From assembly GCA_003220935.1 (NCBI GenBank), contig QHTT01000067.1:1-64000 (forward strand): a stretch of DNA of 64,000 bases. Direction: 5' to 3'. The position numbers and the translations under genes are program-made. The DNA comes from Gemmatimonadota bacterium. GTDB taxonomy: Bacteria; Gemmatimonadota; Gemmatimonadetes; Gemmatimonadales; GWC2-71-9. The notes beneath the pieces were generated by a model. The model was not told the origin of the DNA, made no database searches, and saw only the letters and a program-made list of their open reading frames with translations. Shown here one piece after another: positions 11,084 through 21,588 of the stretch (position 1 is its first letter; each line of letters opens with the position of its first letter).

Positions 11084-12139
11084 ATGGCGTCCCGCACCGT
11101 TCCCACGACCCAACCTCCGGCCATCCCGGCGGGGCTCGCCCGCGAGCAGCTGCTGGAAATCTACCGCTATCTGCGGCTCACGCGGACCCTGGAGGAACGG
11201 CTCACGGCCCTGTACCGGCAAAGCAAAGTCATCGGTGGATTGTTCCGCTCGCTCGGCCAAGAGGGGGAAGCGGTGGGAGCCGCGTACGCGCTCGAGCGCG
11301 GCCGGAACCGCGACGTGCTGTCGCCGCTGACGCGGAATCTCGGCGCCATGCTCGTCATGGGTGCGCAGCCCATCGAGATCCTGCGCCAGTACATGGCGAA
11401 GGCAGGGGGCCCGACCCAGGGTCGCGACATGAACATCCACTTCAACGATCTCGAGCTCGGCTACCTCGGCCAGATCTCTCACTTGGGCGACATGATCCCC
11501 GTAATGGCCGGCATCACCCTCACCTTCCGGATGCGGGGCGAGCCGCGAGTGGGACTGGTGTACATCGGGGACGGCGGCATGTCGGCCGGCGCGTTCCATG
11601 AGGGAATCAACTTCGCCGCCGTGCAGCGTTGCCCGCTGGTCGTCATCGGCGAATACAACCATTGGGCCTATTCGACGCCGCCCCGGAAGCAGTTCGCGGT
11701 GGAGCACCTCGCCGACCGGGTGAAGGGATACGGCGTGGCCGCGGTGACCGTGGACGGCAACGACGTGTTGGCAGTGTACGAGGCGACGCAGCACGCGGTG
11801 GCACGCGCCCGGGCGGGCCAAGGTGTGCACTTTATCGAGGTGAAGACGTATCGTCGCAAAGGCCACGCCGAGCACGACGACCAGCACTATGTGGCGGCGG
11901 ACGAGCTCGACCGGTGGGCGAAGGAAAACGACCCGATCGACCGCTTCGTAAAGCAGTTGCGCCAGCATGACTGGGCGGACGAGCGGGACTTGACCGACAT
12001 CGACGCAGGCGTGCGGGCCGAGATCGACCAGGCCACCGACGCATGCGTCAACGAGCCGCTGCCGCCGCCGGAGTCAGCGCTCCCCGGCGTGTACGCAAGT
12101 CCTGCGGCCGCCGCGCGGCTCTGGTTCCGGAGTCTCTAG
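11084..12139 (+). CDS. pdhA: Pyruvate/2-oxoacid dehydrogenase E1 component alpha subunit
   Basis: TPP-binding GDGGMSAGAFHEGINFAAVQRCPLVVIGEYN; followed by E1 beta and E2. Confidence 0.9.
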   Translation: MASRTVPTTQPPAIPAGLAREQLLEIYRYLRLTRTLEERLTALYRQSKVIGGLFRSLGQEGEAVGAAYALERGRNRDVLSPLTRNLGAMLVMGAQPIEILRQYMAKAGGPTQGRDMNIHFNDLELGYLGQISHLGDMIPVMAGITLTFRMRGEPRVGLVYIGDGGMSAGAFHEGINFAAVQRCPLVVIGEYNHWAYSTPPRKQFAVEHLADRVKGYGVAAVTVDGNDVLAVYEATQHAVARARAGQGVHFIEVKTYRRKGHAEHDDQHYVAADELDRWAKENDPIDRFVKQLRQHDWADERDLTDIDAGVRAEIDQATDACVNEPLPPPESALPGVYASPAAAARLWFRSL

Positions 12140-13120
12140 ATGCCCGAAGTCACCTATCTGGAGGCGCTGCGGCAGGGGCTGTGGGAGGAGATGGAGCGCG
12201 ACGAGCGCGTCTTCATTCTCGGAGAGGACGTGGGGCTGTACGGCGGTGCCTTCAAAGTCACCGAGGGTTTCACCAAGCGCTTCGGCGAGCAGCGCGTGAT
12301 TGATACGCCGATCTCCGAAGCGGCGATCGTTGGGGCGGCAGCCGGGGCGGCCCACATGGGAATGCGGCCCGTCGCGGAGATGCAGTTCATCGACTTCATC
12401 TCGTGCGCCTACGACATGCTCACCAACTACGTGGCCACGGCCCGCTATCGCGCCGGCCTCGCGACGCCGATCGTCGTGCGCGGCCCCTGCGGCGGGTATG
12501 TGCGTGGCGGGCCGTTCCATTCGCAGAATCCGGAGGCGGCCTTCCTCCACACGCCAGGCCTGAAGATCGTCTATCCCGCCACCGCGCGGGATGCGAAGGG
12601 CCTCATCAAGGCGTCCATCCGCGACGACGACCCTGTGCTCTACCTCGAGCACAAGTGGCTGTACCGCCGCATCAAGGAGCAGCTCCCCGAAGGCGAAGAC
12701 ATCGTGACGCCGATCGGCGAGGCGCGGCTCGCGCGCGAAGGCAAAGACCTGTCGATCGTGACCTACGGGGCAACGCTGTGGAAATCGCTCGAGGCGGCGG
12801 AACGGCTCGAGCAGGAGAACGGCGTAGCGGCCGAGGTGCTGGATCTCCGGACGCTGCTGCCGATGGACGACGCGGCGATCATGCGCACCGTCAAGAAGAC
12901 CAACAAGGTGCTGATCGTGCACGAGGACACCCGCACGGGCGGCGTCGCCGGGGAGATCGCGGCGCGCATCAACGAGCAGGCGTTCGAGTGGCTCGACGCC
13001 CCGATCATGCGGGTGACGGCGCACGACGTGCCGCTGCCGTATGCACCGACGTTGGAAGACTTCGTGCTGCCGCAGACAGAAGACATTGTCAAAGCGGCGC
13101 GCTGGTTGGCGGCGTATTGA
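12140..13120 (+). CDS. pdhB: Pyruvate/2-oxoacid dehydrogenase E1 component beta subunit
   Basis: VTYLEALRQGLWEEMERDERVFILGEDVGLYGGAFKVTEG. Confidence 0.92.
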   Translation: MPEVTYLEALRQGLWEEMERDERVFILGEDVGLYGGAFKVTEGFTKRFGEQRVIDTPISEAAIVGAAAGAAHMGMRPVAEMQFIDFISCAYDMLTNYVATARYRAGLATPIVVRGPCGGYVRGGPFHSQNPEAAFLHTPGLKIVYPATARDAKGLIKASIRDDDPVLYLEHKWLYRRIKEQLPEGEDIVTPIGEARLAREGKDLSIVTYGATLWKSLEAAERLEQENGVAAEVLDLRTLLPMDDAAIMRTVKKTNKVLIVHEDTRTGGVAGEIAARINEQAFEWLDAPIMRVTAHDVPLPYAPTLEDFVLPQTEDIVKAARWLAAY

Positions 13121-13189: not shown

Positions 13190-14527
13190 ATGGCTCGCGT
13201 TGACGTTGTCATGCCCCAGATGGGCGAGTCCATCGCCGAGGGGACCTTGAGTAAGTGGCTCAAGAAGCTGGGTGACGAGGTGAAGCGGGACGAGCCGCTG
13301 TTCGAGATCTCGACCGACAAGGTGGACGCCGAGATTCCGTCGCCCACGGCGGGCGTGCTGGCGGAGATCAAAGTTCAAGAGGGCCAGACCGTGCCGGTGC
13401 AGACGCTGGTGGCAGTGATCGAAACCGAGAAGGGAGCGACGGTGGCGGCTGCCGCGGCTCCCAAGGTGGCGCCCCCCGCGCCCGCGGCCGCGCCCGCCTC
13501 GCCGCAGCCGGCACCCGCCGTTGCCCCGACCGTCCCCGACCGTCCTCGACCGCCTTCGACCGCCCCGGCGGGGAAGGGTGGGGACGGGGGAATTGAGACC
13601 GCCGAGGAGCGGCTGCGTCGCCGCTCCACGCCCCTCGTCCGCAAGATCGCGGCGGAGCACTCGGTCGACATCTCGGCGATTCCGGGCACTGGGTTCGCGG
13701 GTCGGGTGACGAAGCAGGATATTCTGGGCTACATCGACCGGGGTGTCCCAGCTATCGCCCGAGCCCCTGGCCCCCACCCCCTGACCCCGACCGTCGTCAC
13801 GCACCCAGCCGTCGAGCCGTGGCCCGGCGACCGGGTCGAGCCGTTCTCGAAGATCCGCAAGATCACCGCGGACCACATGATCACGTCACGTCGCACATCG
13901 GCGCACGTGACGAGTTTCTTCGAGGTGGACTACACCCGCGTCGCCGAGCTGCGGAGGAAGCACAAGGCCTCATATGCCGAGCGGGGGGTGAACCTCACGT
14001 ACCTGGCCTTCATCGCCAAGGCCTGTGGCGAGAACCTCCGCCGGCACCCGGTCGTCAACGCCGCGGTGTCGGGCGACACTATCATTTACCGCGGCGACGT
14101 CAACATCGGGATCGCCGTCGCGCTCGAATGGGGCCTGATCGTGCCCGTCGTCAAACACGCCGACGAGCTGTCCCTGATCGGCATCGCCCGGGCGATCAAC
14201 GACCTGGGCGAGCGCGCGCGCACGAAGAAGCTCTTGCCGGACGAGATCCAGCGCGGCACGTTCACGATCACCAACCCGGGCGTCTTCGGTTCCTACGCGG
14301 GCGCGCCGATCATCAACCAGCCGCAGGTGGCGATCCTCGGCGTAGGGACAATCGAGAAGCGCCCCAAGGTAGTGACCCTGCCCGATGGCACCGACACGAT
14401 CGCGATCCGCACGCTGGGGATGGTCTCGATGTCGTACGACCACCGCATCGTGGACGGCGCTGATGCCGACCGGTTCCTCGCCGACGTGAAGCGGATGCTC
14501 GAGGACTTCCCCGAGGGAGCGATCTAG
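13190..14527 (+). CDS. pdhC: Dihydrolipoamide acyltransferase (E2) of 2-oxoacid dehydrogenase complex, single lipoyl domain
   Basis: Lipoyl domain FEISTDKVDAEIPSP, E3-binding domain, catalytic SYDHRIVDGADADRFL. Confidence 0.92.
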   Translation: MARVDVVMPQMGESIAEGTLSKWLKKLGDEVKRDEPLFEISTDKVDAEIPSPTAGVLAEIKVQEGQTVPVQTLVAVIETEKGATVAAAAAPKVAPPAPAAAPASPQPAPAVAPTVPDRPRPPSTAPAGKGGDGGIETAEERLRRRSTPLVRKIAAEHSVDISAIPGTGFAGRVTKQDILGYIDRGVPAIARAPGPHPLTPTVVTHPAVEPWPGDRVEPFSKIRKITADHMITSRRTSAHVTSFFEVDYTRVAELRRKHKASYAERGVNLTYLAFIAKACGENLRRHPVVNAAVSGDTIIYRGDVNIGIAVALEWGLIVPVVKHADELSLIGIARAINDLGERARTKKLLPDEIQRGTFTITNPGVFGSYAGAPIINQPQVAILGVGTIEKRPKVVTLPDGTDTIAIRTLGMVSMSYDHRIVDGADADRFLADVKRMLEDFPEGAI

Positions 14528-15114: not shown

Positions 15115-15979
15115 TCTCCATTGTCACTCGACGGCATCCGACGGGGAGCTCGCGCCCGCCGAGGTGACACAGCGGGCGAAGGCAGCGGGCCTGGCGGCGA
15201 TCGCGCTGACCGACCACGACACGACGGACGGCGTGCCGGATGCCGCGCGGGTGGGAGAGGCCGTGGGCGTCCGCGTCGTGTCGGGCTGCGAGTTCAGCGT
15301 GAAGGCGCCGTGGGGCGAGCTGCACGTGCTCGGCTACTTCCTTCCGCCGGGCGAGCCGCGGCTCGAGGCGTTTCTCGTCGAGACCCGCGCCGCCCGGCGC
15401 CACCGCGCCGAGCAGATGGTCGGCCGGCTGCAGCGGCTCGGCGTGGACATCGCGTTCGACGACGTCGTGAGCGAGGCGGGGGCTGGCGCGGTCGGCCGAC
15501 CGCATGTGGCACGGGTTCTGGTGGAGCGCGGGGCGAGCGCGGACATCAACGACGCCTTCGTGCGCTATCTCGGTCGCGGCAGGCCGGCGTATGTCGAGAA
15601 ACCCCTGCCGGCGCTTCGCAGGGTGACCGACCTCGTCCACGCCGTCGGCGCGATCGCACTCGCCGCTCATCTCGGCGACCATGGCAGCGAGGGGCAGATC
15701 CGGGAGTTCCAGGCGCAAGGGCTGGATGGCCTTGAGGTGCGGCACCCGAGCCATGCACCGGCGGTCGAGCAGCGGCTCACGCGGATCGCCGAGCGACTGG
15801 GACTCGCCATCAGCGGGGGGTCGGACTGGCACGGCGATACCGAGCTCGGCGACGCGCACGCGTCGCTCGGCGGCCTCGACGTGCCGCTGGAGTGGCTGGA
15901 AAACCTCGAAGTGCGTCACGCGGGAGTCGTCGAGCAGAACCGTCGCGCAGCGGCGTCACGTGGAGGCGTGAATCGATGA
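15113..15979 (+). CDS. PHP-domain metal-dependent phosphoesterase; start unclear (first canonical start, 15164, lies inside the domain)
   Basis: DLHCHSTASDGELAPAEVTQRAKAAGLAAIALTDHDT...SGCEFS...GGSDWHGD in one frame. Confidence 0.8.
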   Translation, partial: DLHCHSTASDGELAPAEVTQRAKAAGLAAIALTDHDTTDGVPDAARVGEAVGVRVVSGCEFSVKAPWGELHVLGYFLPPGEPRLEAFLVETRAARRHRAEQMVGRLQRLGVDIAFDDVVSEAGAGAVGRPHVARVLVERGASADINDAFVRYLGRGRPAYVEKPLPALRRVTDLVHAVGAIALAAHLGDHGSEGQIREFQAQGLDGLEVRHPSHAPAVEQRLTRIAERLGLAISGGSDWHGDTELGDAHASLGGLDVPLEWLENLEVRHAGVVEQNRRAAASRGGVNR

Positions 15980-16425
15980 GCGATCTCCTGGCCATCGGGA
16001 GCAAGGCGCCGGGGTTCAAGGCCCAGGCCTCGGACGGGAAGAGCTACGCCCTGGCCGATGTCCTCAAGCGCGCGCACGTCGCGCTGGTCTTCTACCCCGG
16101 GAACAACACTCCCGGCTGAAACCGTCAACTCTCCGCCGTGCGCGATGAGATGGCCAAGCTCCAGCGAGCCGGGATCCAGGCCTTCGGCGTGAACCCCGCC
16201 GCGGTGGACAGTCATGCCAAGTATGCGACCAAACTGGGCTTCAACTTCCCGCTGCTGTCGGATCCCGACCGGGTGATCGCCCGCGCATACCACGCGCTCA
16301 AGGACGACGGACACGGCATCCAGCGCTCGGTGTACGGAGTGAAGCGGGACGGGACCATCGCCTTCGCGCAACGAGGTGCCCCGCCTGTCGACGAGATCGT
16401 CGCCGCGCTGGGGGGAACGAGCTGA
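15976..16425 (+). CDS. Peroxiredoxin (BCP/AhpC-TSA type), probable selenoprotein with Sec encoded by TGA at 16117-16119
   Basis: MSDLLAIGSKAPGFKAQASDGKSYALADVLKRAHVALVFYPGNNTPG[TGA]NRQLSAVRDEMAKLQRAGIQAFGVNPAAVDSHAKYATKLGFNFPLLSDPDRVIARAYHALKDDG; same frame on both sides of TGA. Confidence 0.8.
16129..16149 (+). promoter_or_regulatory. Putative bacterial SECIS-like hairpin for the peroxiredoxin
   Basis: CUCUC-CGC-[CGU]-GCG-c-GA-u-GAG: 8 bp with two single-nt bulges, GU in apical loop, loop about 21-23 nt from the U of UGA. Confidence 0.4.
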
Positions 16426-18315: not shown

Positions 18316-19264
18316 CGCTTACGACGTGATCATCGTCGGCGCTGGCCCGGCGGGGCTGTGCGCCGCGATGTACGCGGGGCGCGGCATGCTGAAGGCGGTC
18401 ACCATCGAGCGCGGGGCCCCCGGCGGCGAGCTCTTGAATACGGACCTGATCGAGGACTACATCGGGTTCGCGAGCATCAAGGGGTGGGATCTCGCTCAGA
18501 AGATGAGCGAGCACGCCACCAAGTTCGGGGCGGACATCGTCACCGACACCGTGGAGAGGATCCGTAAAGCGGACGACGGCTGGTTCGACGTCGAGACCGC
18601 AAGGGGCAAGGTATACCGCGCGCCGGCCGTCATCCTCACCGCCGGGGGGACGCCCGTGAAGCTCGGGGTGCCGGGTGAGCAGGAGTACGCGGGGAAGGGG
18701 GTCTCCTATTGCGCGGTGTGCGACGGCGCGTTCTTCAAGGGCGAGCTGCTTGCGGTCGTGGGCGGCGGCGACGCCGCCGTCGAGGAGGCGGACTACCTCA
18801 CCCGGTACGCGAGCAAGGTCTACATCGTGCACCGCCGCGATCGCTTCCGCGCCTCGAAGATCCTCCAGGAGCGCGCGTTGGCAAACCCCAAGATCGACGT
18901 GATCTGGAACAAACGGGTTATCGAGATCAAGGGTACCGAGAAGGGCACCGACCAGCTCGTGCTCGAGGACACAGCGACGCGCGCCCGCTCGACCCTCAAG
19001 GTGGGTGGGGTCTTCATCTTTATCGGGTTCAAACCCAACACCAGCGTAGTCGATGGGCACGTGAAGCACGACGCCGCGGGTTACCTCATCACTGACGATC
19101 GCATGATGACTTCCATTCCGGGTCTCTTCGCTGCCGGGGACGTGCGCAGCCAGCTGACGCGCCAGATCACGACCGCGGTGGGCGATGCCACCACCGCGGC
19201 CATCGCAGTGGAGAAATACCTCGCGACGGTGAAGGAAAGGGAGAAGGCCGGGGTCGTGTCGTGA
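18296..19264 (+). CDS. trxB: Thioredoxin-disulfide reductase
   Basis: YDVIIVGAGPAGLCAAMYAGR, active site SYCAVCDGAFF, GGGDAAVEEADYL. Confidence 0.93.
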   Translation: MRESVTNAYDVIIVGAGPAGLCAAMYAGRGMLKAVTIERGAPGGELLNTDLIEDYIGFASIKGWDLAQKMSEHATKFGADIVTDTVERIRKADDGWFDVETARGKVYRAPAVILTAGGTPVKLGVPGEQEYAGKGVSYCAVCDGAFFKGELLAVVGGGDAAVEEADYLTRYASKVYIVHRRDRFRASKILQERALANPKIDVIWNKRVIEIKGTEKGTDQLVLEDTATRARSTLKVGGVFIFIGFKPNTSVVDGHVKHDAAGYLITDDRMMTSIPGLFAAGDVRSQLTRQITTAVGDATTAAIAVEKYLATVKEREKAGVVS

Positions 19265-20015: not shown

Positions 20016-20118
20016 ATGCGGAACGCGGCATTCGGAATGCGCAATGGACGGGCAACCTCGTGCGTCCGAGGCAAGGTCGTTCCTCCCCCCTGCCGCATTC
20101 CGCATGCTGCGTTCGCAT
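20016..20118. repeat. Inverted repeat with about 25-nt arms and about 52-nt spacer; right arm includes the ATG of the next gene
   Basis: Left atgcggaacgcggcattcggaatgcg (20016-20041), right cgcattccgcatgctgcgttcgcat (20094-20118), about 23/26 complementary. Confidence 0.7.
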
Positions 20119-21037
20119 GAGCCACCTTCTCGCCCTTGGGCTCCTGGCTCTCGATTGCGTCGTTCGCGCCTGGCGCATTCAGCTCGCCGCCTGGACCGCG
20201 GGTGGCCGGCTCGCCTTCAACGACGCGTTCCGCCTCAACCTCTACGGCGAGGCGGCGTCGCAGCTGACGCCCAACCGGCTGGGCGGGGAGCCGGCCCGTT
20301 TCCTCGGGCTCACCGAGTCGGGCCTGCGGCCGGTGACGGGGCTGGTGGCGATCGGGGTCGAAGTCGCCTGCGAGTGGCCCGTATTCCTGCTGGCCGCCGC
20401 CGCGCTCTTCGTCTATTACGTACCGGACTGGCGCGACGCCGCCGGCGTGTGGCTGCACCGCCACCGCGCGGGGGAGCTGGTCACGATCGAGGTCGTGGCG
20501 CTCATCGTGCTGCTCGCGGTCTACCTGCTGCAGCGCCTTGCCCGCTCGGGGATGATCCGACACCGAGTCCGGCGGCAGTGGCGCGTGGCCTGGGCGCACG
20601 TGCGGCGTGCCCCGCGCTGGGTGCTCGGCGCGGGGGCGCAGCTCACGATGGTGGGCGTCGCGGCGCGCGCGCTCATTCTGCCGGCGCTCGCCTGGGGGAT
20701 GCCGGACCGGCCACCATTCAGCCAGATGTTCTTCGGCGCGCTCGCGCTGATTCATGCCCCCCTCGTCGTCCCGCTGCCGTCTGGGGGCGGTGGCCTCGAG
20801 GTCGCGTTTCTCCAGGGCTTCGCTGGAGACTTCGGACCACACCAAGTGACGACACTGTTGCTGTGGCGGTTCTACACGGCCGTGCTGCTCACCGCGCTCG
20901 GCGTGTATCAGCTGGTGCGCACGCTCGGCTACCGCGCGGCGGTCGAGCTGTTCAAGATCGGCTGGGGAAAGACGAGGGGCGCAGACACACCGACGCTCAG
21001 CCGCATGGGGCGAGCGCGCAAACGCACGAGCGAGTGA
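20117..21037 (+). CDS. Lysylphosphatidylglycerol synthase TM-domain / flippase-like membrane protein
   Basis: Multiple TM segments; LNLYGEAASQLTPNRLGGEPARFLGLTESG and PSGGGGLEVAF motifs typical of the family. Confidence 0.75.
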   Translation: MSHLLALGLLALDCVVRAWRIQLAAWTAGGRLAFNDAFRLNLYGEAASQLTPNRLGGEPARFLGLTESGLRPVTGLVAIGVEVACEWPVFLLAAAALFVYYVPDWRDAAGVWLHRHRAGELVTIEVVALIVLLAVYLLQRLARSGMIRHRVRRQWRVAWAHVRRAPRWVLGAGAQLTMVGVAARALILPALAWGMPDRPPFSQMFFGALALIHAPLVVPLPSGGGGLEVAFLQGFAGDFGPHQVTTLLLWRFYTAVLLTALGVYQLVRTLGYRAAVELFKIGWGKTRGADTPTLSRMGRARKRTSE

Positions 21038-21045
21038 CGCATCCA

Positions 21046-21588
21046 ATGGCCGAGCCACGGATCAAGCCAGTGACACCGGACAAGGCGGCTCCGGAGGTGC
21101 AGCCGGTCTTCGAGACGTACCTGCGGGAGCGCGGCAATATACCCAACATGTTCCGTACGGTCGCCCTCCGGCCGGGCCACCTCCGCACGATGATCGCCCA
21201 CTTCCGCACCGTGATGAACGAGGGCACGGTGCCGCCGCTCCTCAAAGAGCTGTTGTGGGTGCGGATCTCGCACCTGAACCGCTGCCGCTACTGACTCAAT
21301 TCCCACACTGCCTTGGCAAGGCAGAAGGGGGCGAGCGATGAACTGGTCGAAGCCCTCCAGGACCGCGGCGGGGGCGCGGCGATCGAGCGGCTCGAGCCGG
21401 GGTGGCGCGCGGCGCTCGAGTATGCGGCCGTGATGCACCGATCGGGGCATGAGGTGAGTGACCAGCTGTACCGGCGGCTGCGGGCGGCGTGGGACGAGGG
21501 GCAGATCGTGGAGATCACGCTGGTCATTGGGATGACGGAGTACTTCAATAGGTTCAATGACGCGCTGCGGGTAGAACCGACCAAGTGA
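21046..21588 (+). CDS. AhpD-like / carboxymuconolactone decarboxylase family protein, probable selenoprotein with Sec encoded by TGA at 21292-21294 (CxxU)
   Basis: MAEPRIKPVTPDKAAPEVQPVFETYLRERGNIPNMFRTVALRPGHLRTMIAHFRTVMNEGTVPPLLKELLWVRISHLNRCRY[TGA]LNSHTALARQKGASDELVEALQ...; same frame on both sides. Confidence 0.82.
21301..21330 (+). promoter_or_regulatory. Putative bacterial SECIS-like stem-loop for the AhpD-like protein
   Basis: CTGCCTT-GGC-AAGGCAG perfect 7-bp stem (21308-21324), plus TCCC/GGGG lower stem across an internal loop; apical loop about 24-26 nt from the U of UGA. Confidence 0.55.

Follow-up and report, generated by a model that had tools for sequence, protein, structure and literature searches.

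The locus at positions 21046-21588 of the window, i.e. the whole 64,000-nucleotide stretch of Gemmatimonadota DNA analysed here, raises the question of whether a TGA codon lying within a conserved gene specifies selenocysteine (Sec), terminates translation or results from an error. The genes and elements of the window for which coordinates are given below are located on the forward (+) strand.

A gene interrupted by a single in-frame UGA

The reading frame 21046-21588 runs from an ATG through NRCRY-TGA-LNSHTALARQ to PTK and a terminal TGA, the internal TGA at 21292-21294 being its sole interruption; once read through, it encodes an AhpD-like protein of the CMD family of 180 aa, in which Sec is residue 83. 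A standard ORF caller returns two pieces, namely 20044-21294, with an unrelated upstream ATG as start, and 21313-21588, with a TTG start. The initial annotation considered these same-frame ORFs as one gene split by ORF calling, a view upheld here; the read-through product matches both the Pfam CMD model PF02627 (48.2 bits, cut-off 23) and the AhpD core domain TIGR00778 (51.7 bits, cut-off 27.8). Full-length matches are also obtained with TIGR01926 (peroxidase-related enzyme, 72.2 bits) and NF053654 (YciW-related (seleno)protein, 88 bits), the latter being explicitly a (seleno)protein family, but both scores are under the curated cut-offs (81.8 and 310, respectively), so that neither model would name the gene. 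From the YciW-type NCBIfam match, we infer membership of COG2128. In Foldseek comparisons with solved structures, the AlphaFold2 model (pLDDT 93.5) comes closest to AhpD-type proteins (6k40, 2pfx, 2prr and 3c1l; TM about 0.85 to 6k40 and 2pfx) and, by this predicted fold, the product is an all-helical AhpD-like protein of the peroxidase-related, COG2128/YciW type, whose dithiol-like centre is formed by C80-x-x-U83, together with E68 and H87.

The redox motif C80-R-Y-U83-L-N-S-H87 (21283-21306) is aligned to the CxxC of PDB entries 6k40, 2oyo and 2pfx, the Sec column facing the second Cys of the solved AhpD-type structures, and E68, C80, Y82, U/C83 and H87 are invariant in an alignment of 15 sequences (A2). 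As proposed initially, the TGA stands where CxxC proteins have their second redox residue (NxCxYUxxSH). The alignment of AhpD-like homologs at this column, which had been suggested as a check, agrees with this, with Sec in 26 and Cys in 4 of the 30 extracted homologs and no other residue, within an N-x-C-x-Y-[U/C]-x-x-[S/A]-H context in all but one row. In a sample of 395 Gemmatimonadota genomes searched with a homolog threshold of E <= 1e-15, a match is present in 42, of which 33 have a single TGA (one of these 33 also has a TAG), and the codon is identical, in the same column, in the 26 aligned Sec homologs; the earlier argument that a random error is unlikely is strengthened accordingly. 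Regarding selection, dN/dS values are mostly 0.10-0.18 on the 3' side of the UGA, with one value of 0.30, and 0.05-0.21 on the 5' side, and the coding sequence downstream of UGA 21292 is, judging from these ratios, under purifying selection.

Of the TGAs with open flanks in the window, 698 in all, those at 21292 and 16117 are the only ones shared by four or five distant loci in synteny; three more are each seen at two loci, of which two are on the strand opposite to the fumarase gene and one is at the tRNA-Leu; a first and looser scan for conserved TGAs was swamped by antisense and out-of-frame matches and was rerun with distant loci only. The TGA at 16117-16119, 5,175 bp upstream, lies in a peroxiredoxin (Prx) gene (NTPG-U-NRQ) and corresponds to the second replacement of a Cys by TGA within 5.2 kb that had been announced from the sequence. 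An in-frame UGA within a conserved gene could also be expected from a genome-wide reassignment of UGA to a standard amino acid (codes 4 or 25). UGA, however, terminates both the AhpD-like and the Prx genes, a contradiction upon which reassignment was rejected; besides, only two of the 698 TGAs recur as described, ARAGORN reports a tRNA-SeC(TCA) and no residue other than Sec or Cys is seen at this position in homologs, which together make this explanation practically inconceivable.

The downstream hairpin and the selenium machinery

Immediately 3' of the UGA, a bacterial SECIS hairpin is found at 21308-21324, where 21308-21314 pairs with 21318-21324 around the loop GGC (21315-21317); taking the T of the TGA as nucleotide 1, this 7-bp stem with its GGC loop starts at nucleotide 17 in Sec homologs. 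Over 26 distinct Sec sequences, 99.5% of the cells are paired and compensatory changes occur at 5 of the 7 pairs. The covariation score was equalled in 0 of 500 shuffles, the signal was destroyed when the partner was slid by 1-3 columns, and the same helix is predicted unaided by RNAalifold. In a second set, from named genomes, all 7 pairs are formed in 48 of the 50 Sec loci, these 48 being from Gemmatimonadota, Acidobacteriota, Eisenbacteria and one Ktedonobacterales MAG, and 1-4 pairs are formed in 12 of the 13 CxxC loci, the exception (L206) having an intact hairpin. Single-sequence folding of the region gives z = -1.6 (61 nt) and -0.2 (79 nt) and is no proof by itself, so that the SECIS assignment is drawn from covariation.

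The two Sec loci without the hairpin at nucleotides 17-33 are from Bacillota (L207 and L211; a Clostridia MAG and Petromonas) and have a different sequence there, in which a longer CUGCC...GGCAG pairing may serve as a substitute SECIS.

As for the selenium machinery, whose search had been recommended initially, the host genome contains a tRNA-Sec starting at base 63 of contig C128 (ARAGORN SeC, anticodon TCA; Rfam 78.9 bits), SelA (544 bits) and SelD (403 bits), the latter (G000, contig C129, 14227-15153; L017, 1501-2427) with an in-frame TGA in the motif HGAGUACK and being itself a predicted selenoprotein. One component is missing from this picture, as SelB was not found in the host draft, which is 85% complete, using either the family model or the protein of a sister genome, with matches only to EF-Tu-like and other GTPases. 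In that sister genome (G114), SelB adjoins a gene that its sequence identifies as recO; the host draft yielded no recO either, in a search run without a positive control from this draft, and since recO is also missing, the absence of SelB likely reflects an assembly gap. Across the phylum sample, SelB was found in 283 of the 395 genomes, three of them from the host genus, and the Sec trait is, on this genomic evidence, widespread in Gemmatimonadota. Moreover, tRNA-Sec is detected in 31 of the 33 genomes with the TGA form against 2 of the 9 with a stop-free match (Fisher p = 4e-5).

These data bear directly on the possibility that the TGA is a sequencing or assembly error for a true Cys codon or the stop of a dead gene, to which the single base separating TGA from TGC or TGT and the draft nature of the assembly lend some credit. 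The same TGA nevertheless recurs in dozens of genomes that were assembled independently, some of them as a single contig, and it co-occurs with the Sec machinery. Sequencing error and pseudogene were both rejected on this recurrence, on the covariation of the SECIS hairpin after the TGA and on the purifying selection acting on both sides of it, leaving a negligible probability to such an origin.

As Sec read-through competes with termination in bacteria, the UGA could also act mainly as a stop, giving an N-terminal fragment of 82 aa, while the full-length Sec protein would be made only in the presence of selenium. The 82-aa product would be devoid of the second redox residue and of His87, and the entire downstream half of the gene is under purifying selection; a regulated truncation of this kind is quite improbable, although it is compatible with Sec insertion and not exclusive of it. 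Selenocysteine at UGA 21292 is almost certain, and would be inserted by tRNA-Sec and SelB as directed by the hairpin 21308-21324. That the gene is a genuine selenoprotein gene, considering as a whole the SECIS-directed UGA decoding, the CxxU AhpD-like product and the mechanism proposed below, appears very probable.

Exchange between Sec and Cys

In a wider quick tree of 72 rows, comprising 51 Sec and 21 Cys forms, at least 6 changes are needed. In two Gemmatimonadota genomes where tRNA-Sec was not detected (G033 and G313), Cys is present in both Prx and the AhpD-like protein. In a locus from Terriglobia (Acidobacteriota; L206, 3278-3796), a Cys codon, TGT, is combined with the intact hairpin mentioned above, and tRNA-Sec was not detected in the corresponding genome; at this locus, Sec was likely replaced by Cys recently, the SECIS persisting as a relic.

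Two other Acidobacteriota loci, L205 and L208 (genomes G418 and G419), have the Cys form without hairpin, yet tRNA-Sec is present in their genomes, and Sec-to-Cys conversion is thus not tied to the loss of the Sec trait. In seven further Acidobacteriota loci (L216, L217, L219, L221, L224, L225 and L227), the first Cys of the motif is lost (TPYC) and a single Cys remains at the Sec column.

The genomic island and a candidate selenium relay

The AhpD-like gene belongs to an island conserved across the order, in which E2 lipoyl acyltransferase-PHP-PrxU-SDR-TrxR-MBL-AhpDU-FumC (fumarase) follow each other with further genes between. In the window, the genes for 2-oxoacid dehydrogenase E1 alpha (11084-12139) and E1 beta (12140-13120), both named from their sequences, lie 5' of the one for the E2 dihydrolipoamide acyltransferase with its lipoyl domain (13190-14527), the island being located downstream of this 2-oxoacid dehydrogenase operon. 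By synteny, E2 is a possible lipoamide donor to the Sec-containing AhpD-like protein, and a thioredoxin reductase-like flavoprotein with a CAVC motif (18359-19264) is a possible electron donor. The Prx selenoprotein gene (AhpC/TSA family; 15976-16425) has Sec at the peroxidatic position within the motif TPGU. From its UGA onward, about 33 nt (16117-16149) are almost invariant, synonymous sites included, in 30 genomes of the family, a level at which covariation is not assessable; this stretch, a putative SECIS, suggests a strongly constrained element different from that of the AhpD-like gene.

At the active site, Sec83 would act as the nucleophile on an oxidised partner or a peroxide, Cys80 would resolve it as a Se-S bond, and H87 with E68 would form a proton relay by analogy with AhpD, an assignment of roles to U83, C80, H87 and E68 that leans on what is generally known of AhpD. 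The residue roles in Mycobacterium tuberculosis AhpD are likewise general knowledge, and the present protein shares with it a CxxC-type centre set among an acidic residue, a Cys and a His, and, as candidate partners, an E2 and a peroxiredoxin; in contrast, Sec here replaces the second Cys and is also found in the peroxiredoxin, and the use of these partners is putative. The lipoyl group of the E2 encoded upstream and/or the neighbouring thioredoxin reductase system could reduce the protein again, and the electrons would then go on to the Sec peroxiredoxin encoded in this island. In Mycobacterium, electrons flow along NADH-Lpd-DlaT-AhpD-AhpC (PMC12028322), and AhpD-like adaptors using Lpd/SucB have been described (PMC10460364). 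By this analogy, the assignment of partners, from E2 or TrxR to the AhpD-like selenoprotein and on to Prx, is about evenly poised between right and wrong. The broader proposal of an order-wide selenium relay, running from the lipoyl group of E2 (and/or TrxR) through the CxxU AhpD-like protein to the Sec Prx and switched jointly to Cys upon loss of the Sec trait, is put forward as rather less likely than not.

The AhpD-like selenoprotein could instead be a stand-alone peroxidase, or exhibit some other activity of the CMD fold, rather than being an adaptor to the neighbouring Prx. The family holds other chemistries, such as the debrominase Bmp8 (6ohi/6ohj), some genomes with the Sec form have no match to the island Prx, and in other phyla it is found without the island. 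In the neighbourhoods of other Gemmatimonadota families and of Acidobacteriota, the only partner gene found in common was an E2, now and then, and, the AhpD/Prx/E2 synteny being limited to the order, the functional link is suggestive only. Against a stand-alone role are the order-conserved island with E2, TrxR and PrxU and the adaptor precedent for AhpD (PMC12028322; PMC10460364), and such a role is regarded as a real but rather doubtful possibility.

The kind of selenoprotein described here is already known from marine metagenomes, as the initial annotation had stated, with 27 AhpD-like CxxU sequences from the Sargasso Sea (PMC1088965) and 299 sequences of GOS AhpD-like 1, COG2128, also CxxU (PMC2398784). 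The features of the GOS family, namely the CMD domain, CxxU and a SECIS, are all found here; with the AhpD-like 1/2 proteins of both surveys (PF02627), the present one shares the CMD/AhpD domain, the CxxU motif, a SECIS right after the UGA and widespread Cys homologs. Whereas those sequences are metagenomic reads, the gene is placed here in the genome of a Gemmatimonadota bacterium, whose marine origin is not shown and whose closest named relatives are MAGs, together with the machinery, an order-wide synteny and a Sec-to-Cys history. Similarly, the neighbouring Prx is of the type of known Prx selenoproteins (TxxU; PMC2398784), with the difference that it is linked here to the AhpD-like selenoprotein in one syntenic island. 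Two reviews, from 2022 (PMC9312934) and 2026 (PMC13188914), list the AhpD-like kind of selenoprotein and do not mention Gemmatimonadota, and text searches of a literature collection listed no paper whose title concerns selenoproteins of this phylum. The gene is thus a well-supported further member, in Gemmatimonadota, of a known kind.

An AhpD-like selenoprotein known earlier mainly from marine metagenome reads is now placed in Gemmatimonadota genomes with its machinery, SECIS, synteny and history. With SelB present in most of the sampled genomes of the phylum, such genes are likely missed or cut short there by standard annotation. The Terriglobia locus captures a probable Sec-to-Cys conversion while the SECIS is still intact. 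Beside a lipoyl-enzyme operon, the gene is paired with that of a Sec peroxiredoxin in an arrangement conserved within the order, which offers a concrete and testable selenoenzyme relay; if true, two selenoenzymes would act one after the other in the same electron chain.
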